Source: Nanobdellota archaeon
GTDB taxonomy: Archaea; Nanobdellota; Nanobdellia; Woesearchaeales; SM23-78
Direction of reading: 5' to 3'
DNA: 45,490 nucleotides
NCBI GenBank assembly: GCA_018819305.1
Contig: JAHJQO010000043.1
Location: 1 to 45,490 of the forward strand
Positions 5,812 through 17,600 of the stretch are shown one piece after another (position 1 is the stretch's first letter; each line of letters opens with the position of its first letter). The notes below the pieces were generated by a model. That model was not told the DNA's origin and did no database searches. It saw only the letters and a program-made list of their open reading frames with translations. Both the position numbers and the translations under genes were made by a program.

Positions 5812-7689
5812 CTAATAATTAACCAATATCTCAACATCCTTTCCGAATAAGCTCTTCAGGTCGTCAAAGATTGGCTGCTTGATAAACACTCTTTCAGGCA
5901 TTTCCACACCTGTGAGTGCTTTTTCATATTCTTCTAATGAGCTGGCTTTGATGTTTTTTAATGAGCCGTCTGGTGCAATGTCTGCTCTTGAGAGATTTTT
6001 ATCTTCATTGTCAATGTCATGGATGATGAATGCTTTGGTTCCTAAAAGAACAACTTCTCCGAATTTCTTGCCATGCTTGACTCGTATCCTTGTTTTCTCC
6101 AGTTCAATTCCTCTTTTTCGCTGTATATATTCAACAAGGAATCTTATGAGCTCTCTGGAATCTTTTTGCACAGAGTTAATTTCTGCTTTTGTAAGCTTTT
6201 TTGCATCATAGTCTTTTTTAGCTTTTTCAATTTCTTTAAGCATTCTCAGGAATTTCTGCGGTATAAGTCCTTTTTGCACAACTTCTGTTTCAAAAATCTT
6301 TATTATTTCTGTGTCTTTGATTTTTTCCACACCTTCCATTCTTAGAATGTCCCTGACTATGGTTACAATATTTTCATAGCTATGCAAAACACTTTCTTCT
6401 TCTTTTTTCTTTGCAATTGCCTCAAAAAGCTTGTTAAGTCTTTTTAGAAATTTATCTGCGCCTTTTAGCAGGACATCAATTTCTGCTCCTGAAATGGATT
6501 TTTTTATGCCATGCTCAAGGTCTTTTCTGACTTCAAGATTTTTTCTTAAAATATCTATGTATTCTTTTTCAAGCAGTTTTTCTTTTTTCACAAAAATATC
6601 AGTCATGACATCAGGTGTTTCCTTTGGTGTTGGCGGTGGTATGCCATACATCATAAGAGCTGCCTGGCTGGGTGTTAAAATAGATAAAAAGATTTCATCC
6701 ATTCCCATATCTTTTAGCTTGTATTTAACTCTTTCAAGCATCTGCTCTCCTGAATGCATAAACATGTCAATTGCTTCTGGACTTGGCTTTATTCTTCCCA
6801 TCTGCAACAACAGCTTCCATGGCATGAAAACTCCTCTGTCATAAAATGGAATTCCATCTCTCAGGAATGTAAAGTATACTGGATTGGCTTCTTTTATTCC
6901 TTCCCAGAAATCTGTCAAAATCCAGACCTGAATATTTATCTTGTTTTCAATGCCAGTCATCTTGCCAGCACTAAAACCCATGTCAATGATTATGGCTCTG
7001 AGCTTGTCTCTCAACTCTGCTCTGGTCATTTTCTTGACATCTGTATCATCAACAATAATACATACATCAATATCACTAGTTGGAGTTGCTTTTCCCTGAA
7101 CCAGGCTTCCTGCAAGAACATAAGACACAATGTATTTTTCAAATTTCTTTAGAACCATGCTCTTGTGTATCTCTGATATTTTGATAGCTGCAATCATTCC
7201 TGTGTCATAAACAGGCGCACTCATTGCAATCATCTGAAGAATATCGTATTTTGCATCATAGCATGACTGCCAGACTTCTGTTAATATAATTGTCTGAGGA
7301 GCAAGGTTTTCATCAATCTCAAGAGCCATTTTCTCAATAATGCCTGAGAGCTTGTCTCTGAGCTCTTCTTTGCTCATCTTCTGGGAATCAGAATCATCAA
7401 CCAAAACCAAGACATTGATTTTTTTCTTGTTCTCATCCTCTTTGTCAGGAGGCAGAAGCGCAATCCCCATTATATACCCTTCAAACTTGCCGACAACTTT
7501 TTCCTTGAATTTGTCAAGCTTGTCTTTTATTTCTTCAAGTCTTTTTTTAGCTTCATCAGGTATTTGCTCAGCCATTTTATCAAGCTGCCTGCTAATAGCA
7601 TTAGCCTGTTCTTTCTGCTTCACAGAAGCATCATCTTTTTCTGCATTTTTAGCAGTTGTCACTTTTTTAGCGTTCATTTTTTTTGCCAA
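5812..7689 (-). CDS. Large nucleotidyltransferase-domain protein with HEPN-like region
   Basis: A 625-aa soluble protein. Residues 60-165 look like a degenerate nucleotidyltransferase unit: INVLVLVDDSDSQKMSKEELRDKL is kept but the Gly-Ser motif is lost. Residues 180-290 hold a complete one, with AGSLVQGKATPTSDIDVCI giving G194-S195 and the metal-binding D207 and D209, followed by a parallel DDTDVKKMTRAELRDKL. Residues 300-420 are helical, with a HEPN-like SQAALMMYGIPPPTPKE and a possible RX4H (R388-H393). The C-terminal third has no known features. The TTG start at 7689 is set by a well-placed GAGGTGAT site. Family membership is firm; the reaction is unknown, perhaps nucleotidyl transfer to RNA or protein. 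Confidence 0.75.
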   Translation of the reverse strand: MAKKMNAKKVTTAKNAEKDDASVKQKEQANAISRQLDKMAEQIPDEAKKRLEEIKDKLDKFKEKVVGKFEGYIMGIALLPPDKEDENKKKINVLVLVDDSDSQKMSKEELRDKLSGIIEKMALEIDENLAPQTIILTEVWQSCYDAKYDILQMIAMSAPVYDTGMIAAIKISEIHKSMVLKKFEKYIVSYVLAGSLVQGKATPTSDIDVCIIVDDTDVKKMTRAELRDKLRAIIIDMGFSAGKMTGIENKINIQVWILTDFWEGIKEANPVYFTFLRDGIPFYDRGVFMPWKLLLQMGRIKPSPEAIDMFMHSGEQMLERVKYKLKDMGMDEIFLSILTPSQAALMMYGIPPPTPKETPDVMTDIFVKKEKLLEKEYIDILRKNLEVRKDLEHGIKKSISGAEIDVLLKGADKFLKRLNKLFEAIAKKKEEESVLHSYENIVTIVRDILRMEGVEKIKDTEIIKIFETEVVQKGLIPQKFLRMLKEIEKAKKDYDAKKLTKAEINSVQKDSRELIRFLVEYIQRKRGIELEKTRIRVKHGKKFGEVVLLGTKAFIIHDIDNEDKNLSRADIAPDGSLKNIKASSLEEYEKALTGVEMPERVFIKQPIFDDLKSLFGKDVEILVNY

Positions 7690-7871: not shown

Positions 7872-8513
7872 TTACGGCATGATAATTCTTCTTCTTGGTT
7901 TTAAGAAAGGCTTATGTTGTCTTTCCAGTCTATCCAAGTAGTTTGGTGTAATCATATGGTTTCTCTCATGCTCATTGAGTATACTTGTCAAATCTCTTAC
8001 TTTGTCTAACTTGGTGACATCAAAGAGATTTGAACTGTCGGTATAATCAATAACTGCTTCTGCATCTACAGATTTGATTAGGTTTGTTGGTATTGCACCA
8101 ATTGCTTTCTTTTTTGTATCAAGTGCTTGTGCAAATACCTGACTTGCCAAGTCAAATGTCGTTCTATCTTCATATTGGTCAACAACATCATTAAAATCAT
8201 CAATTCCAAAGCCATATGTTCCGCTGAAAATTCTTGACTGTTGAAAAACATCAAGAGTTGCTCCTGCACCATGGCCTGTAGCATTAAAAGCATATGGTAG
8301 TGCTTTTTGTTTAAATGCAAACTTATAAGCATCTTTGCCTGCTTCTGTCTTTAGAAGTTTATAATCAAGTAAACCATTAGTATAAATTGATTCTTCTGCA
8401 GCGTTTAGAGCTGATCTGTATTTATGATCCAGAGTGTCTTGTTCTAGCGTTGCTTGTTTGTTTTTTTCAACATAATCATTTACTCTTGCTTTAGATTCAT
8501 TTGATGGTGCCAT
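7872..8513 (-). CDS. Unknown soluble protein, paralogue of the next gene upstream
   Basis: I do not recognise this family. The 213-aa protein is mostly alpha-helical with no signal peptide or membrane segment. It shares a pattern with the 238-aa protein at 8679-9395: a DHKYRSALN motif near residue 28 (DHHHRAAYE in the other), GLLDYKLLK (GLINYDWLK), a central LDVF element, and a late DKVRDLTSILNEH (LTVRDAVKLLRTH) followed by a Leu-Asp pair. The C-terminus is basic and carries PRRR. A GGGGGAG ribosome binding site lies 7 nt before the ATG. The two genes probably arose by duplication and then diverged widely. Confidence 0.6.
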   Translation of the reverse strand: MAPSNESKARVNDYVEKNKQATLEQDTLDHKYRSALNAAEESIYTNGLLDYKLLKTEAGKDAYKFAFKQKALPYAFNATGHGAGATLDVFQQSRIFSGTYGFGIDDFNDVVDQYEDRTTFDLASQVFAQALDTKKKAIGAIPTNLIKSVDAEAVIDYTDSSNLFDVTKLDKVRDLTSILNEHERNHMITPNYLDRLERQHKPFLKPRRRIIMP

Positions 8514-8550
8514 TTTATATCTCCCCCTTGTTAATTAAAATAAATTCACT

Positions 8551-8574
8551 CAATAGTGGTTACAATAGTGATTA
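8551..8574. repeat. Two tandem 12-bp repeats beside the TATA box
   Basis: CAATAGTGGTTA at 8551-8562 is followed directly by CAATAGTGATTA at 8563-8574. On the minus strand they sit immediately downstream of the TATA box of the 213-aa gene, at the expected transcription start, a good place for a repressor to bind. The function is inferred. Confidence 0.5.
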
Positions 8575-8577
8575 TCA

Positions 8578-8607
8578 TTTATAAAGTTTTCGCTTTTTAG
8601 GCGAAAA
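8578..8607 (-). promoter_or_regulatory. TATA box and upstream inverted repeat of the 213-aa gene
   Basis: On the minus strand CTTTATAAA (8578-8586) is the likely TATA box. Directly upstream lies a perfect 7-bp inverted repeat, TTTTCGC at 8587-8593 and GCGAAAA at 8601-8607 with a 7-nt spacer, covering the BRE position. The paralogous gene has a related imperfect repeat in its upstream region. Confidence 0.5.
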
Positions 8608-8678
8608 TTCAAAAATTTCATTTTTGTTAGTTCTGTTTTTAATATACACAAAACACCACTAGAAAAAAGGAATACGCG

Positions 8679-9395
8679 CTACTTTTTATCTTTATCGTCT
8701 TTCTTCTTCACAGGATCAGGCTTAACATCATAATCAGAACGGAACGGCTCCTTAACCGCATACTCACTAATAATTTTATCTAATCCGGTTTTCGGTAGAG
8801 CTCCTTTATTCTCATAATGAGTTCTTAGCAACTTAACAGCATCTCTAACAGTGAGCAACTTCTTTTCAACCATGTCACCAACACCAGTATGTTTAATAAT
8901 ATCATCAATATTATCTTTTGTGAAATGAGCCATGGAAGCAGCAGATAGCTGTTTTTTCAAATCATCCATCATCTCGTCTTTATGACGGAAAAAATTCGTA
9001 TAAGTGAAATTTTCCTGATAGTGATGAATTAAGTCTCCAATCTGCTGACTTGTCGTATTAGCATAAGCTTTCATCAACCTTTCTTTTTTGAAAACATCAA
9101 GTTTCTTATCATCAGAAAGCTTTTCACCGGGCTTTTTAAAACCAAAATGCTCCAAAGATCTGTCTAAATAGAAATCAGACATAGAATTTTTAAGAGCCAG
9201 CTGCCTTTCCTCTTTTTTCAGCCAATCATAGTTAATCAAACCGTCCTTATCAGTTAAAACGTCAGCAATACTAGTTTCATAAGCAGCCCTATGATGATGG
9301 TCAGCAGTATCTATAAGTTTTTTCTCCTTCTCCATATTCTTATGATACTCAGTAATATGTTTAGGAGGAACATACTCAGCCTTATCCTTAGCCAT
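8679..9395 (-). CDS. Unknown soluble protein, paralogue of the next gene downstream
   Basis: Unknown family, 238 aa, helical and highly charged, with a Lys/Asp-rich C-terminal tail. It matches the 213-aa neighbour in order of motifs: DHHHRAAYE near residue 32, GLINYDWLK, KLDVFKKER, IGDLIHHYQENFTY, then LLTVRDAVKLLRTHYE and GLDKIISEYAVKEPF near the end. A TTTATATA element about 28 nt before the ATG suggests a leaderless message, unlike its paralogue, which has a strong ribosome binding site. Separate promoters suggest that the pair are not simply one operon. Confidence 0.6.
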   Translation of the reverse strand: MAKDKAEYVPPKHITEYHKNMEKEKKLIDTADHHHRAAYETSIADVLTDKDGLINYDWLKKEERQLALKNSMSDFYLDRSLEHFGFKKPGEKLSDDKKLDVFKKERLMKAYANTTSQQIGDLIHHYQENFTYTNFFRHKDEMMDDLKKQLSAASMAHFTKDNIDDIIKHTGVGDMVEKKLLTVRDAVKLLRTHYENKGALPKTGLDKIISEYAVKEPFRSDYDVKPDPVKKKDDKDKK

Positions 9396-9442
9396 AGATT
9401 AAATTTTGGAATTAGAATTATATAAATCTTTTGTTTTTAACC

Positions 9443-9527
9443 TTTTCCGCTTCGCGCAAAACGTTAGCGAAAATCAGGTGACTTCAAAAATCAAAAATTT
9501 TTGAGCATTCAAATCAAAAATTTGAAT
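9443..9527. repeat. Cluster of inverted repeats upstream of the 238-aa gene
   Basis: Three elements lie in this spacer. TTTTCCGC (9443-9450) and GCGAAAA (9467-9473) form an imperfect inverted repeat. TCAAAAATTTTTGA (9491-9504) is a perfect 14-bp palindrome. ATTCAAAT (9507-9514) and ATTTGAAT (9520-9527) form an 8-bp stem with a 5-nt loop. They may act as terminators for the upstream transcript or as binding sites. The whole 9396-9572 interval has no gene. Confidence 0.5.
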
Positions 9528-9572: not shown

Positions 9573-10772
9573 TCAACCTTGGTTTTCAAGCTCTTGTCTT
9601 AGCAATTCAATCTCTTTCATGTTATTGCATGCCTGCTGGCTCTGAGGGTCAGTAATCTTGTCGCAAACAGTATATTCACCCTGCAAAAAGAAAGGATAAT
9701 AACATTCATCCTTATCATCCACTCCTTGAATCATGTCGCAATAGATTTTCTGCATACTCTTATGAGCAACATTCTTCAGACACAGATCTTTTTCCTCTTG
9801 ATTATCAGTGATTTGCTGAACACAAATATTCTTAGCTCCTTCAGGGTCTGTCACTGCAAGATTAGCAGCTTCAATTTTAATTGCAGCAAAGCTCTTGCCT
9901 AGTGTTGGAATAACTTGCTTTTGTTGTGAATGACAGGAATTATCATACCAATAACCACCACAAACACCACCACAATCAACACCAACTTCATCTTGATTCA
10001 TTGTGTTATCATTGCAAGAAGCCTGAATTACACTAGTGCCTCCACCATCATCACTCTTAGGCTCTGCATGGCAGGCACCATCATACCAATAACCACCACA
10101 AACACCACCACAATCAGGGCCTGTTTCATCCTGATTCTGAACTCTATCAACACAAGTCGCAGTAACAGCCACCACTCTTTCCAATACATCAAAAGAAAAA
10201 GATGAAGTTGCAATTTTATCTTCATAATTAGCAAAAACTTTCATAACATAAGTGCCGGGCCTTATACTGGTGGGAAGAGTCACACTTCTATGATGACTCA
10301 TGGTTGTGCTGATAGCCACAGTCTCTTCCTTGCTAGCAATAGAATTATCTCGTGAATCTAAAACTCTGTAAAGAAGAGTAATATCAAACCTATCAGCAGA
10401 GCCCATGTTGCTTACTTCCAAATCAAAGCCAACTTCTTCTCCAGGATAAAAAGAAAGCTTGTCCTGCTCAACACTAATATCTAGCAAAGCTTCTTTAGGG
10501 CTTACCAAGGCAGGTAGATAAACAACACCTGCAATAATCAAACCAATAAATACAACTAGAAGAATAATCTTAGGAAAAACAGTTTTCTCATGACTGACAC
10601 CTAAAGGAGAACTAACTGAAACAGCTGCTGCTCTTCTCTGCATAACAGACTCCATCACTCCCTCAACAAGAGCTGGACTATAGCCCTCTCTAAGCATCTG
10701 CTGCTTAACAGTTGCAGGACTAATTCCTTTTGCAAGATTATCTTCTGCAAATTTAAATAAAGTGTCAACCAA
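9573..10772 (-). CDS. Membrane-anchored surface protein with two Cys-rich repeats
   Basis: A 399-aa protein. Residues 1-48 form a cytoplasmic helical domain resembling a small UBA-like bundle. One membrane helix follows at about 66-90. Residues 96-200 are a beta-sandwich of CARDB/Ig type (YPGEEVGFDLEVSNMGSADRF). Two Cys-rich repeats come next, at 207-235 and 253-281, each with the pattern C-x-D...NQDE-x-G-x-DCGGVCGGYWYD...C-H and five cysteines. The C-terminal part is helical with further cysteines. The start is TTG, supported by GAGGGAT. The extracellular side is inferred from the membrane helix and the cysteines. It is the last gene of the surface cluster. Confidence 0.65.
   Translation of the reverse strand: MVDTLFKFAEDNLAKGISPATVKQQMLREGYSPALVEGVMESVMQRRAAAVSVSSPLGVSHEKTVFPKIILLVVFIGLIIAGVVYLPALVSPKEALLDISVEQDKLSFYPGEEVGFDLEVSNMGSADRFDITLLYRVLDSRDNSIASKEETVAISTTMSHHRSVTLPTSIRPGTYVMKVFANYEDKIATSSFSFDVLERVVAVTATCVDRVQNQDETGPDCGGVCGGYWYDGACHAEPKSDDGGGTSVIQASCNDNTMNQDEVGVDCGGVCGGYWYDNSCHSQQKQVIPTLGKSFAAIKIEAANLAVTDPEGAKNICVQQITDNQEEKDLCLKNVAHKSMQKIYCDMIQGVDDKDECYYPFFLQGEYTVCDKITDPQSQQACNNMKEIELLRQELENQG
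9942..10116. repeat. Two identical 37-bp segments within the Cys-repeat gene
   Basis: The 37 bases at 9942-9978 recur without change at 10080-10116. They encode the D-C-G-G-V-C-G-G-Y-W-Y-D core of both protein repeats. Identity at DNA level, third codon positions included, points to recent duplication or gene conversion. Confidence 0.8.
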
Positions 10773-10799: not shown

Positions 10800-13127
10800 T
10801 TATTTGAAAACAGGCCATATATCTGATTTAAACATAACAGAATAATCACTAACATTATTCATCTCTCCAAGATTATGCAAGCATCCTCCTGGAGGAGTTG
10901 TTTTTTGCAAGTCTGGAAGCTTAAGCACTCTAAATTCAAGTCCATTATTATTATCAAGGTCATCCGCAGTTATCTTGAAAACACCTGTCGCAGGGTCACC
11001 ACCAAGAACCATTTCTTTAATCTGCAAACCCCCCCATGGCGCAGGAGTCATGTTAATCTCTTCAGAAGGTATATATTCAAAATCCAAACATATAAGAACA
11101 TTTGCTTTACAGAATCTTGAACAATTAGCAGAAATCATAATTCCATTGTAATCAATCAGTTGACCTGTGATTTCATAATCTCCAGGAACCAGTTTGATAG
11201 TGCTTTTTTCTACACCCTCTTTTCCAAAGATTAGAGTATTTGAAACAGGGTTAACACCAGCGTCAAAACCAATCTGAGTAATAGAGAGAATTACTTGCTC
11301 TGAATCAGAATCAATATCCTGAAGACCAGATATTGTTGCAAGATCACTCATCCAGTCCCAATCCTCACGATATATGTTCTTTAAAACCTCGACTTTCTTA
11401 AGAGTAGCATTGATTTCTCTAATCTTGTGAATCTTCTGAGTTGGAATAATAATATTTCTATTTTCTTCTGTGCTCAACTGTATTGATTTAGAACCATAAC
11501 CTTCTTTTGTAATTGATAAATATCCTCCTTGACAAATAGGAAGAGTGCTACTCCATTCTGCAAACTGGCCATTATGCACTAATTCTGTTGTGCCGGCCCA
11601 ACACTCATCATAATTTCCGCAACCATATGTGACAATTGCACCATCAAGCGGCACATTGCCATCAACATCAACAACTCTTATACTGACATTACCAGAAATC
11701 CAAGTATCTTCATCGCAGAACAAACTTTTAGTGATTATTCTTGGCTTTACATCAATAGGGTTGCCTGATGAATCTGTATAACTTCCAGCAGGATAAGAAA
11801 GAGTTGTATTAATATAAGAGTCATCCCATTCAACAGTACCCATACCTAGCTGCCATGCAAGAGCAGGCTTATTCTCAATTAAGTTGCTTTCAAGAGCAAA
11901 CATAAAACTATATTCAGGAATCTCTGTTGTGGGTTCTAAACCTCTTATCTCAACAAACAAAGGATAAGCAACATCATAAGAAAACCTGTACGTATTGAAC
12001 ACGCTATCAGGCACATACTGGTTGCCTTTTTGCATTTCCACACTTGGTCTGATAATATCCCCTTTAGAAGGCTGAACATACATATCTAAACTGTTATCAA
12101 CATAATAGAAATTAATTGCTATGTCAGATAAATCTGGAACAGAAGTATTCAAAACATCCATTGTCAGACTGTTATAAAAAGCATCTTCAATCTGAACTCC
12201 AGAGGGTTCAATTAGTTCAAAACCTCTTGTATCTTTCACTTGAAGAGCAGGAATATTACTTAACAGTAATCCATTCATATCTAGTTTTGCTTTTGACTTA
12301 CTCCAAGTCATGATATATGGCAATTCAGTGTATTCGAGAACAGGCGGTAGCATGTTAATATCCATGCCAGAATAATAATTAATCAAACTGATTGTAAAGC
12401 TTTCTGAGAACTGGCTTAAAAATTCTGCCATTAACATAGTAAGAGCCAGATCATGATATTTTTTATAAGGAAACTTCAAAACATCTGTGTATTTAGTGAT
12501 AGTTGTCTTGGTAGTGCCTTTAGTCACTTCAATCTCATACCTAACAAAGAACTCTATCTCATCCTCTCTGATAAAAGAACTTGTTATAATATTATCATTA
12601 TCAGCAACAACATCATAACTCTCTTCTAGAGAATCAAAACCTCCAACACAATCAGGAAGGTTTCTGCTGATATACATATTTAACTGAAATTCCATGCTTT
12701 CAATGCTTGGAGCTAATGACTTATAGTCAAAATTCAAATAATCAGATTTTCCTGGAACATGCAAATAATAAGGAACAGCATCTTCTGGTTCGCCTGTCAA
12801 AGAAACCAATTCATAATGAGTAGGACTCAAAACACTAAACCGCATTTGTAAAGGTGTGAGAAATGGATCTAACGGATCAATATATCCTCCATGAGCACCC
12901 ATTAATTTAATTGCTTCAATACCAACCTGATGTATGCATCCTTCAACATAATCTCTTACTGGCTTGAATTCTTCTGGAACTGCTTCTTCTTTAAACTCGT
13001 CACCAATAGAAGCAGGTTTTTTTAACACAAAGTAGAGTATAGCAACAACTATTAATATCACTAATGCCAGAATAACAAATAAAGTAATCTGTGCTTTCCT
13101 GTCACCTCTTTTTAACAATTTTTTCAC
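10800..13127 (-). CDS. Large membrane-anchored surface protein
   Basis: A 775-aa protein with a short basic N-terminus and a single strong membrane helix (residues about 13-34, QITLFVILALVILIVVAI), then a long beta-rich extracytoplasmic part. The N-terminus resembles the class III/type IV pilin-like leaders seen on DPANN surface proteins, but no clear cleavage motif is visible. Residues 480-560 look like a carboxypeptidase-regulatory or Ig-like domain with paired cysteines. The GTG at 13127 is the longest start; a TTG at 13118, spaced correctly from AAAGGTGA, may be the true one. It lies between the 272-aa and 399-aa cluster members. Function unknown. Confidence 0.6.
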   Translation of the reverse strand: MKKLLKRGDRKAQITLFVILALVILIVVAILYFVLKKPASIGDEFKEEAVPEEFKPVRDYVEGCIHQVGIEAIKLMGAHGGYIDPLDPFLTPLQMRFSVLSPTHYELVSLTGEPEDAVPYYLHVPGKSDYLNFDYKSLAPSIESMEFQLNMYISRNLPDCVGGFDSLEESYDVVADNDNIITSSFIREDEIEFFVRYEIEVTKGTTKTTITKYTDVLKFPYKKYHDLALTMLMAEFLSQFSESFTISLINYYSGMDINMLPPVLEYTELPYIMTWSKSKAKLDMNGLLLSNIPALQVKDTRGFELIEPSGVQIEDAFYNSLTMDVLNTSVPDLSDIAINFYYVDNSLDMYVQPSKGDIIRPSVEMQKGNQYVPDSVFNTYRFSYDVAYPLFVEIRGLEPTTEIPEYSFMFALESNLIENKPALAWQLGMGTVEWDDSYINTTLSYPAGSYTDSSGNPIDVKPRIITKSLFCDEDTWISGNVSIRVVDVDGNVPLDGAIVTYGCGNYDECWAGTTELVHNGQFAEWSSTLPICQGGYLSITKEGYGSKSIQLSTEENRNIIIPTQKIHKIREINATLKKVEVLKNIYREDWDWMSDLATISGLQDIDSDSEQVILSITQIGFDAGVNPVSNTLIFGKEGVEKSTIKLVPGDYEITGQLIDYNGIMISANCSRFCKANVLICLDFEYIPSEEINMTPAPWGGLQIKEMVLGGDPATGVFKITADDLDNNNGLEFRVLKLPDLQKTTPPGGCLHNLGEMNNVSDYSVMFKSDIWPVFK

Positions 13128-13150
13128 CTTTAATTTTTCTTATTAATTTA

Positions 13151-13969
13151 TTAATATTGGATATGCTTAGTTAGTTCAATAATATAATTTCTTGTCCAGC
13201 CAACAAAAATCAGGATAAATATAACTGTTAATATTCCAAATAACACCAGGATATTCACCAATAATCCTAATATGTAAATTATAATAATGCCAAAAATAAC
13301 AGCAGCAATAATATAAAATATAAACCAGTAAATCTTTACACCTATCCTGAAAAAGTCAGAGATAATCTTTCCAATAGATTTTTTCTCGTCATAAATGCTT
13401 CTGCGCATAGGGTCAAGATAAAGGAATAATAGGATTTCTATTAATAAAATGACTGCCGCAACTGAAGTTACAAATATGTTTGCTGTTAACAAAAATATGA
13501 TAAACCACGCAACAAACCAGATGATGTTAAGTAAAAATATTTTCCAGGAAAACTTTTTTTTCAGGTTTTTTTTCAAAGCAATATCCCATGCTCTATGGTA
13601 TAAAAATGATATTGCCAACATTATTAACAAAAATGCAAAAACTACAATGATAAATGATATCCAAAGTACTTTTGCCACCCTTGGAGTCAAATCAGCAACT
13701 GCTTCTTGCATAGCCGCAGTATCTTCGCTTTGAGCTGAAGCATAAACAGTCAATAATTCGGGAAGAACTTCAGCACTTATCCTGTTAACCATCAATAAAG
13801 CAAGATTAAGAATAATTATGATTGCTAAAAATGTAAGAAGGTCAAATACTGCTGATTTCAGGAACTCTTTTGTGCCAATCCTTTTATAACTATTAATAAA
13901 CGCACTGCTTTGAGTATTCCAATAAACAGACTTTTCTTTAATTTTCTTTTTTACTTTTTTCTTTATCAT
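13151..13969 (-). CDS. Polytopic membrane protein of the surface cluster
   Basis: A 272-aa integral membrane protein with about six hydrophobic helices: near residues 40-63, 98-120, 145-165, 167-187, 210-235 and 238-262. The N-terminus is lysine-rich and presumably cytoplasmic. No transporter motif is recognised. It lies between single-pass and secreted proteins in one transcription unit, so it could be the membrane platform or export component of that system. That role is inferred from context only. Confidence 0.6.
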   Translation of the reverse strand: MIKKKVKKKIKEKSVYWNTQSSAFINSYKRIGTKEFLKSAVFDLLTFLAIIIILNLALLMVNRISAEVLPELLTVYASAQSEDTAAMQEAVADLTPRVAKVLWISFIIVVFAFLLIMLAISFLYHRAWDIALKKNLKKKFSWKIFLLNIIWFVAWFIIFLLTANIFVTSVAAVILLIEILLFLYLDPMRRSIYDEKKSIGKIISDFFRIGVKIYWFIFYIIAAVIFGIIIIYILGLLVNILVLFGILTVIFILIFVGWTRNYIIELTKHIQY

Positions 13970-13975
13970 TTTTTA

Positions 13976-14647
13976 TCAAGGAGTTTTCTTATCAACAACA
14001 CTAACAACCATTTCCTGAATATTATCACTGCCATAATTCTTATACTCTAAAATAACTTGTTCATATTTTATATCCATATATCTTGCTTCATAACCACTAT
14101 CACCAACCTGCATATAGGCTTCTGAAAAGTCATCGTCATCATCGCCTTTTTTACCTTCAAAATATTCTTTTTCAATTCCTTTTTTTAAATAAACCCTATA
14201 AAGCGCGTCATCAATATAAGGCATGATATACCATGAAACCTCATAGAGCCAAGTATTGTTAAATCCTCTTTCTCTTGTTGCAGACACAGTAAGAGTTGTA
14301 GTGTAAATAGTGGTTTCTCCAAGAGTCGTATCTTCAACCACGTTTCTTATCTGCCTGACATCAGTGCTAAGGTCTAACAAACATACTTCACGCTCCCAAT
14401 TAGCAAGACCGAAAAAAGTGTTATTATACCAACCGTAAACATCAGCATTTGAATAAGGGTCGACCTGGTTCTTATCAGGAATAAAAGGATTTAGTGAATG
14501 CCAAAAATTATGCAATATACCTGATTGATTAGCACTGTAATCTTTGAGCCATCCTGGCTTGTAATCATCAACAGTAGCACCAAAAACAAAGATAACATTA
14601 ACTAGGACAATCAATACTAGAATTAATAATAATTTTTTCTTAAACAC
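13976..14647 (-). CDS. Small secreted or membrane-anchored protein of the surface cluster
   Basis: A 223-aa protein when read from the GTG at 14647, which overlaps the stop of the 1257-aa gene by 8 bp and has GGAG upstream. The longer frame starts inside the previous gene and is unlikely. Residues 1-25 form a hydrophobic signal (KKKLLLILVLIVLVNVIFVFGA). The mature part is rich in aromatic residues and strands (NNTFFGLANWEREVCLLDL, TTIYTTTLTVSATRERGFNNTW). It has an acidic Asp run (GDDDDDF) and no known domain. Overlap with its neighbours suggests coupled expression. Confidence 0.6.
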   Translation of the reverse strand: MFKKKLLLILVLIVLVNVIFVFGATVDDYKPGWLKDYSANQSGILHNFWHSLNPFIPDKNQVDPYSNADVYGWYNNTFFGLANWEREVCLLDLSTDVRQIRNVVEDTTLGETTIYTTTLTVSATRERGFNNTWLYEVSWYIMPYIDDALYRVYLKKGIEKEYFEGKKGDDDDDFSEAYMQVGDSGYEARYMDIKYEQVILEYKNYGSDNIQEMVVSVVDKKTP

Positions 14648-17600
14648 TATAATCAACTCCAACGCAAAAATCAGGACTTCCTGCCGGAATATCCACAGGC
14701 ACATCACTCTTTAAAGCATTGTAAGGATTCTTCATGAAAGATATGAGTTCCCTCAGGCTAAAAAGGGCACCAATAGTACCACAAGCAGTGCCTCTCCAAC
14801 CAGTGGTGTAAACCTCAGAATCAAAAAGTTGTCCTCCCTCACCATGATAATGAGCACAACCAGGCCAGAAATACAAGTAACCTATTATTAGCCCCGTGCC
14901 TAACAAATTACTCAAGAACACTTTACCAACACTTTCCATAACTTTTCCAAAGGTAGCAGCTCCATCAATCTTATACCTTGCACTCTCAACATATACGCAC
15001 ATATCAAGGTTGTATTCAAACTCGCAAGCTTCCAACGGACCGCCAATTTTCGCCATTTCTTCCAAACACCCAAGACGCTTGCAAAGCAGCTGCCTCTCTT
15101 TCCTGTCATTAAACATTATAGCAGGAGCACACATGCCATCATAATGCTTGCTCTTATAAGGATTATAAATCCAAGAGCCGTCATCACCAAGAAAAGCATC
15201 CACAGCATTCTGCATCCTAACCTCTGTATCAAACATCTGATAAGATACAGGAGAAAATGGCTTGAATAATTTATCAGCTGTACCTGGACTTATAATAGCT
15301 TCACCAGTGATTGAATTTGAAGCAACAACATTTCCAGTTAATGGTGCAAAATATAAACCATTTGATTTCAACATAGTAAGACTATTCTTATTATATCTAT
15401 ATAATATTCCTTTATACATAATATCTGTGTAATCACGAAAATTAGTAATTATCTTTCCATTACCAAGTATATTACGTATATTATTTTCTAATTGTGCTGT
15501 TTTAGGCGAAGCAGGTCCAATAGATGCTGTAATCGCTGGTATTGGTCTTATTTTAGAAATAGCTGGATCCTTAAAAGCATCACTAATAAGTGGATTTGCT
15601 GCTACAGCACTATCATGACAACTTACTAATTCATTTGGTATTGATGCCTGAATATTCGTTAATTTATTTTTATCTATTCCAACATCAAGTGGTGGAGGTA
15701 AAACAGGATCATTTTTAGTTGCTACTAATAAATCATTATACTCACCTTTTGGCTCAGTAATCTTAGTTTCAGTAAGCGTTTCCTCTTCGATAGTTGCAAT
15801 GATATTTGCAGGATCTCTCCCCAATGCAGCCACTAGTTCTGCAGCCTCTTTTGCAGCCGCCGTAGCCACCTGTGCTTTAATAATTTGTTTTATATCATGC
15901 TGCTGGACAAAGTAGGTTGTATAGCTCATACCAATGTCCACATATGTATTAAAATCATATAATTTGCAGGTGTAGACTGAACAAGTTAGTTTGATAACAA
16001 GGCCTGGTAGATTGCCTGGGAATGGAACTCCGCATGCAGGTGGTGGACCAACAACGCATGGTGCGAATGGAGGTATCGGTACCCAGCCTTGGGGCCATAT
16101 GGTGCTGTCAACAAATGATTGAAAGGTTCCTATAACTCCTTGTCCTGAGGCCCATATGGCTTCTCCAACTATTGGAATAGCTAAGGAAATTCCGTAAAGA
16201 ACTGTTTTGACTGCTTGAAGTAATGAATTGACTTTTCCAAGACTTTCTGCAAGGCTACATATGGCTCCCAGCACCTTATAGACTTTTTCACGTTTCGCAA
16301 TTTGTTTGTCTAAACTTATTATTTGTTTTTTAATCTCAGTAGTTTTCTTTTTGAAGTTCTTGTCAATGCCTCCGAGTGGCTGGTTGTAGACATCAAGTTT
16401 TGCACTTATGGTTTCGATTTCTCTTTGAGTGTAAATCTTTAATCCATGTTTTATTTTGAACTCCTGAGTGCAGTTGACTTCTACTTTGTCTTCTTCATCC
16501 CAGTCTTCACCGCAGGAAGCATAATATTTCAATGGAAGAATCATCATTGGTTTTAAGGTTAATTCATTTACAAGATATGCCTGGCCATTAATGCATGCTG
16601 TTGCTGAGCAATCAACTATGCTTCTTTCAAGAATCTCAACATCATTAGATTTCTTAACAATCTCTAATCCTATTGGAACTTCAAGTGTTATCTTGCTTGC
16701 TGTTTTTCTGTCAATCTTTGGAAGTGTTCCTCTTGTTTTTATTTTTTCAATTAAATCAGGCACTTCATCAACATTAACACAGATTTTCACTGGCACTGAA
16801 GCACTCATTTTATTGCCGACATAATCTTCTGCTCCAACTTGTATGTTTGTAGATATGCCTCTTGACTTCAAAGCTCCAACTGTCAAAACACAGTTCCAAT
16901 ATCCTTCTATTTGTGTACATGTTGCTCTGGTTTCATTATCATCACTTATAGACAAAGTATTTGCCCACGCGGTTACTTCTGGGCTTTGGGCATCAGTAAC
17001 ATTAAATTCAATAACCAGACTTTCACTGGCTGTTGGGCAGACAGGAGTTGTATTAATTTCTCCTATAAGTTGAGGAGGTGCACCATCAACAATATATGTG
17101 CCTGTTGACTGACCTGATATGCTGTTGCCCAAATCATCAAAACCAGATAAAGTAAATGTTGCACTGCTCACACTCATGTTTACTGCGCACAGCCATTTGC
17201 CTGATGAAGGAGTGCATTTGGTTTGCGCTCCGTTAATTTTTACTTCACTGTTATTATATGTGCTCTGAGTACTTATATCAGCAGTAACTTCAGCAAGCCC
17301 TCCTTTCATATAACAGGTGCTTCCTGAACACTTGGTGCCTTTGGGCTCAATCTTGATTACTTCACCTGCATCATTAACAACTGTAAACCTTGCAGAAAGT
17401 GACTGATTTGCTGTGTTGCCAACCTGGTCTGTTGCAGTTACAACAAAATTAAGACTTGCATCTGCAGGCATTAACTTGATATTTGAGAATTTGCAAGTAT
17501 AAGTTTTATTCCATCCTTGTCTTTGGCAGGATGCAGCAATATTCTTCTGAGATGTTGGGCTTGTCCTGTCAAAGCTTGAGAAATCTCCAAACACACTGTT

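Follow-up and report, generated by a model that had tools for sequence, protein, structure and literature searches.

What do two adjacent, similar genes of no recognised family do in an archaeal genome, and with which neighbour do they belong? The question arises from the window analysed here, a stretch of 45,490 nucleotides from a Nanobdellota archaeon (contig JAHJQO010000043.1 of assembly GCA_018819305.1), in which an initial annotation made from the sequence had proposed a paralogous pair of proteins. Gene A encodes 238 aa (8679..9395) and gene B 213 aa (7872..8513); these coordinates agree with the annotation, and both genes lie on the minus strand. On this strand A is followed by B and then by a nucleotidyltransferase gene of 625 aa, referred to here as NT (5812..7689, minus strand), whose listed start is a TTG with an in-frame ATG 12 bases further in. 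The linkage of the pair to NT had not been seen in the initial annotation. As described below, A and B stem from an ancient duplication within a fast-evolving, all-alpha family that is most often found beside NT, a highly conserved protein combining minimal-nucleotidyltransferase (MNT) and HEPN domains.

A and B belong to one unrecognised family

All of the motifs from which the paralogy had been proposed are present in the same order in the two proteins: DHKYRSA in B and DHHHRAA in A, GLLDYKLLK and GLINYDWLK, LDVF in both, VRDLTSILNEH and VRDAVKLLRTH, and a late LD. The similarity exceeds chance, as a two-sequence BLASTP comparison gave E = 4e-9 (24% identity over 174 columns) and the Smith-Waterman score of 119 lies far above the scores of 2000 shuffles (mean 36.2, sd 6.1, maximum 71). 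A and B are homologues and members of one protein family, of which the assembly of the window's own genome (81.7% complete) contains exactly these two copies.

Searches of Pfam, NCBIfam, PHROGs and PDB sequences returned no informative match to A or B, which bears out the description of the family as unrecognised. The best E values were 0.3 in Pfam, 0.026 in NCBIfam and, for B, 0.05 in PHROGs, with 0.012 as the best for any of the six members of set A1. One of the 16 members of set A3 matched RnlA_toxin_N (2.2e-4); no second member did, and this assignment was rejected. Neither A nor B has a match in PADLOC. An origin from viruses or phages was likewise rejected, given that tblastn found no match in phage records; no relative of A was found in viral contigs. 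In the open-access literature searched, a cluster resembling NT was found and the partner family was not mentioned.

A first search with A matched three of 59 genomes, the window's own among them. The profile search that the initial annotation had proposed revealed a real family in which tandem pairs are frequent: a six-row profile found it in 52 of the 352 genomes of the order, and an iterated profile gathered 77 ORFs at E <= 1e-5 across 54 loci, comprising the window and 53 stretches around matched places in relatives. All 38 matching genomes in a phylum sample of 279 belong to the same order, and none of them is among the genomes of the same class and other orders (G352-G464).

The family domain also forms the C-terminal end of long proteins in L057 (743-3523), L073 (1075-5406) and L051 (2-1009, truncated by the contig end), which come from three genomes of one family (G345, G346, G348). 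Two of these fusions, of 926 and 1443 aa, look coiled-coil-like by eye. The L057 protein contains repeated H-x-H...H-x-H stretches, which we take to resemble phage tail-fibre repeats. In L003 (1342-2094), a member begins with a hydrophobic segment, unlike the other members.

The family is predicted to be helical and its conserved positions look structural

The AlphaFold2 model of A is predicted to be all-helical (pLDDT 89.6, pTM 0.79; 16 sequences). Foldseek found no match to it at E <= 0.001 in the PDB or BFVD (best 1.6 and 0.18, respectively). The best VIA-align rows were designed helical bundles with Z scores of 6.3 (rmsd 3.8 over 109) and 6.2 (rmsd 6.5 over 135), which may reflect only a common arrangement. 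In a family alignment of 75 rows, the conserved columns are occupied by glycine, by small and by hydrophobic residues and, where helices begin, by aspartate, and no invariant catalytic set was found. The conserved positions look structural, not catalytic.

Several more specific identities were considered and rejected. The R-x4-6-H pair expected of a HEPN domain does not occur among the conserved columns of the 75 rows. By hhalign the family scored at most 1.6% against the HEPN-like parts of NT, and profile comparison linked neither A nor B to these parts or to the MNT parts. The rows listed in the fold searches with the A model contain no HEPN chain, a result that does not count against a HEPN fold. 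The stretch T-D-K-D-G-L-I-N in A is reminiscent of an EF-hand loop, and G52 and the I/V/L at position 54 are conserved in the family. However, a twelve-residue EF-hand loop is acidic at positions 1, 3, 5 and 12, and the first and last of these are occupied by L47 and W58 in A and for the most part by L/I and K/R/L across the family, so that the calcium ligands are missing. An internal repeat was not found by hhalign (0.6%).

A different explanation is that the family is structural: its members would be helical proteins, abundant in the cell body or envelope, whose common neighbourhood with NT is due to inheritance only. Cysteine is nearly absent from the family (0.06% of residues, compared with 1.2% in the other conserved ORFs of the loci and 0.21% in NT) and lysine and histidine are high, a composition that would suit such a role, as would the C-terminal position of the domain in the long, partly coiled-coil-like proteins of G345, G346 and G348. 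On the other hand, neither A nor B has an apparent signal peptide by eye. We regard this explanation as rather doubtful, and the gene neighbourhood discussed below bears on it further.

NT is a core gene with an intact nucleotidyltransferase site

NT matches Pfam NTP_transf_2 (3.7e-7, 30.9 bits with a cut-off of 21). Its layout comprises a degenerate and an intact MNT domain, two HEPN-like helical domains and a C-terminal beta domain. The nucleotidyltransferase domain is preceded by a degenerate tandem copy of itself (hhalign 99.1%), and the GS and the aspartates are retained in the second copy only: the Gly, the Ser, the paired Asp and the later Asp are each present in 46 of 46 rows, which gives NT the full MNT active-site pattern of GS, paired Asp and third Asp.

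In the AlphaFold2 model of NT (pLDDT 82.3, pTM 0.45; numbering as in the ORF minus 14), the domains are readable and their relative placement is unsure. Residues ~148-310 are best matched in structure by MNT antitoxins and aminoglycoside nucleotidyltransferases. Residues 307-410 match the HEPN protein 2hsb (Z 11.2, below the caution level of 13 for helical bundles; rmsd 2.5 over 101), and residues 411-510 match the HEPN-type 2q00 (Z 9.7, rmsd 2.4 over 95), which the available text of PMC3710099 places in the HEPN family. An R-x4-H motif at 374-379 (ORF 388-393), with the Arg and the His each in 45 of 46 rows, lies at the end of helix 361-378. Judged from the model, NT combines two features of HEPN RNases, namely the HEPN fold and an R-x4-6-H that closes helix 3. 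According to the same available text (PMC3710099), this motif is usually lost from HEPN domains that are fused.

NT was found in 345 of the 352 genomes of the order and in 278 of the 279 of the phylum sample, a few of them matched only by a weak second type, and is a core gene of the order and the class. In most genomes of the order the NT profile also picks up another, weaker match (when seen alone, at about E 1e-31 to 1e-48), which suggests a distant nucleotidyltransferase paralogue. The NT gene also occurs in L110, titled Methanosarcinales archaeon, and L166, titled Candidatus Aminicenantes bacterium; these records are probably mis-binned contigs.

By description, NT is probably the published orphan cls.004259/NEQ050, given as 'MNT fused to HEPN' and described, in the accessible part of PMC6393860, as specific to DPANN and unusually well conserved, with unknown role and importance. 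Like the orphan, NT joins MNT and HEPN-like domains in a single chain and is near-universal, not patchy. It differs in the tandem of pseudo-MNT and MNT seen here, and the accessible part of PMC6393860 mentions no variable helical partner pair for the cluster. NT also resembles the type VII toxin-antitoxin system MntA-HepT, as its MNT domain aligns with the MNT antitoxins 8xeo_B (Z 10.2, rmsd 2.9 over 100) and 7bxo_A (Z 10.8, rmsd 3.8 over 118) and its residues 307-410 with 2hsb. However, the MNT and HEPN-like parts are fused in one core protein in NT, and A and B show no similarity by profile to either part. The near-universal distribution of NT does not fit the patchy two-gene toxin/antitoxin modules of type VII.

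The family is linked to NT and occupies a variable slot

An NT-type ORF lies within 3.5 kb on 34 of the 54 family loci. Six loci lack NT despite at least 3.5 kb on both sides (L037, L043, L055, L064, L080 and L082), and the other 14 loci without NT have a short flank on one or both sides. Among the 29 loci scored for orientation by a motif rule, 23 are divergent, six co-directional and none convergent with respect to NT. The orientation varies even inside the window's genus, as the window is co-directional and L088 divergent, and the adjacency is kept.

The six relatives from this genus show how differently the genes of the locus have changed. NT is 68-81% identical, the CBS protein 62-74% and UppS 62-70% (UppS in five of the six), and the flanking 399-aa and 775-aa genes are 47-57% identical in the four genus loci where they were found. 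For A and B, BLASTP gave no match at 1e-3 in the six relatives. A profile search recovered a diverged pair in L169 (taken as L098) and one diverged copy in L088, and in L170, L171 and L172 the slot beside NT is occupied by a single ORF of 250-279 aa.

A second slot family, with 14 members, is found beside NT in the named loci and includes the slot ORFs of L091 and L093 (taken as L172 and L170). Compared with the A/B family by hhalign, it scored 26% or 70% depending on the profile, with controls peaking at 7.8% (220 of 420 clusters run) and a smaller seed of the second family at 50%. These values are suggestive, though not proof, of a remote relationship between the two families. In L097 the A/B family lies next to NT and the second slot family beyond it. 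The 80 named NT loci divide into 13 with the A/B family in the slot, 13 with the second slot family only and 43 with neither; ten have too little flank and one was unscored. Since NT is near-universal and the A/B family occurs in a minority of genomes, NT needs no recognisable member of it.

The 399-aa neighbour (9573-10772 of the window) has two Cys-rich DCGGVCGGYWYD repeats after a membrane segment and adjoins the variable slot in genus relatives too. It is followed at 10800-14707 by a run of membrane- or surface-type genes, of which the 775-aa one has a pilin-like N-terminus by eye. Beside the family, the 775-aa surface-type gene and the CBS protein recur in ten loci each. As these other neighbours recur, the linkage of the family to NT may also be inherited synteny, and the membrane- or surface-like genes upstream of A, of a type that recurs beside the family, would suit a structural role. 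Two observations weaken that explanation: the orientation to NT flips within one genus with the adjacency kept, and the bridging neighbours are not retained in most loci.

The hypervariability of the partner slot could also be accounted for if A, B and NT formed a module for defence or a toxin-antitoxin system, akin to type VII, in which A or B would be a toxin, an antitoxin or a trigger sensor and the fast change would come from conflict with viruses. Such a module would be in keeping with the MNT and HEPN-like domains of NT and with the retention, in a fused protein, of both residues of an R-x4-H motif that such fusions usually lose. It is at odds with the core status of NT, which is unlike that of patchy toxin-antitoxin systems, with the lack of both a PADLOC match and conserved catalytic residues in A and B, and with the failure to find an A relative in phage records or viral contigs. 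We consider it quite unlikely.

The pair goes back to an old duplication

In 13 loci used for labelling, each with two copies and NT, the copy adjoining NT was labelled B and the further copy A. A maximum-likelihood tree of 69 rows was built without the near-duplicate locus L066, the N-terminal parts of the long fusions, and ORFs outside 180-320 aa (pair members excepted), with singletons kept unlabelled. The tree requires three label changes, compared with shuffled means of 9.0 and 8.9, and none of 500 shuffles was as low. The window's B sits in a starred set of 17 rows that holds nine of the 13 B copies and no A, and its A in a starred set of four A rows. The split is imperfect, with all four copies of L078 and L079 in one clade, the B copies of L038 and L039 and the A copy of L073 unplaced, several long branches and a bootstrap that had not settled. 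The pairs that lie away from NT, in L037, L049 and L084, look like products of local duplication. Taken together, the separation of the labels and these local pairs indicate that the window's pair stems from an old duplication, not a recent one, and that some lineages duplicated again later.

Tandem pairs kept over such long times, some of them with no NT nearby (L037, L043, L055), raise the question of whether A and B simply make up a heterodimer that functions by itself, NT being irrelevant. The occurrence of just one copy beside NT in several loci speaks against this arrangement, and we find it improbable.

A and B differ in their start signals

The initial annotation had ascribed different translation signals to the two genes, and the difference is real and recurs in relatives. 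B is preceded by the ribosome-binding site GGGGGAG (8521..8527, minus strand), and A by a putative TATA-like box, TTTATATA (9419..9426, minus strand), recognised by its spacing of 31 bases upstream of the ATG, from which the A transcript is predicted to be leaderless. With start codons assigned by eye, Shine-Dalgarno matches of 4 nt or longer were found in nine of 13 B genes compared with one of 13 A genes. In eight of the 13 A genes, a TATA-like box precedes the start by 30-32 bases, the spacing that leaderless transcripts would show. The B genes of L042 and L044 are exceptions that look leaderless; the B gene of L048, with a GTG start and a GGTG visible upstream, was unscored in the Shine-Dalgarno count.

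Inverted repeats had also been said to be shared by the two upstream regions. This holds for B, where an exact repeat TTTTCGC-N7-GCGAAAA (8587..8607) lies upstream, between A and B; the region upstream of A has a single TTTTCGC arm (9467-9473, minus strand) with no exact partner. No exact repeat is expected by chance, and this one is single in the 1.53-Mb assembly, which led us to reject a secondary mobile hairpin. The TTTTCGC 7-mer is unenriched in the window (6 compared with 4.6 expected). One arm of the repeat (minus-strand GCGAAAAC) abuts the TATA-like CTTTATAAA, and the two may be the BRE and TATA elements of a B promoter.

A and B as candidate partners of NT

The reading that we favour, at a probability of roughly 45%, is that A and B serve NT as partners that evolve fast and have no catalytic role of their own. 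It draws on gene adjacency, together with the lack of convergent loci, the separation of A and B on the tree, the asymmetry of their start signals, the hypervariability of the slot and the similarity of the second slot family; the confident helical fold of A and the lack of a conserved catalytic set point the same way. The six long-flank family loci without NT count against it, as do the wide occurrence of NT in genomes with no recognisable family member, the many NT loci with neither family in the slot and the recurrence of other neighbours beside the family.

We infer from these observations that the partnership would be physical, with A and B binding NT, each other or both. They could either offer up the target for nucleotidylation by NT or determine how specific and how active NT is. 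The enzyme itself would work via its intact nucleotidyltransferase site and possibly also via the R-x4-H of its HEPN-like domain, and whatever it modifies or cleaves, the variable partners would adapt from strain to strain and the enzyme would stay fixed.

A bolder version, which we hold to be unlikely if worth entertaining, is that the slot adjoining NT serves as a hypervariable locus of specificity. NT would then be a core, still-active nucleotidyltransferase-RNase that chooses its target via replaceable helical pairs, drawn from the A/B family, from remote relatives of it and perhaps also from proteins unrelated to it, in a domesticated MNT-HEPN system with interchangeable adaptors.

If A and B are partners of NT, their conserved position, combined with a sequence changed almost beyond recognition within one genus, would offer a lead to the target of NT. 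The locus would also serve as a test case for recognising the partners of core enzymes by their position when sequence similarity fails.
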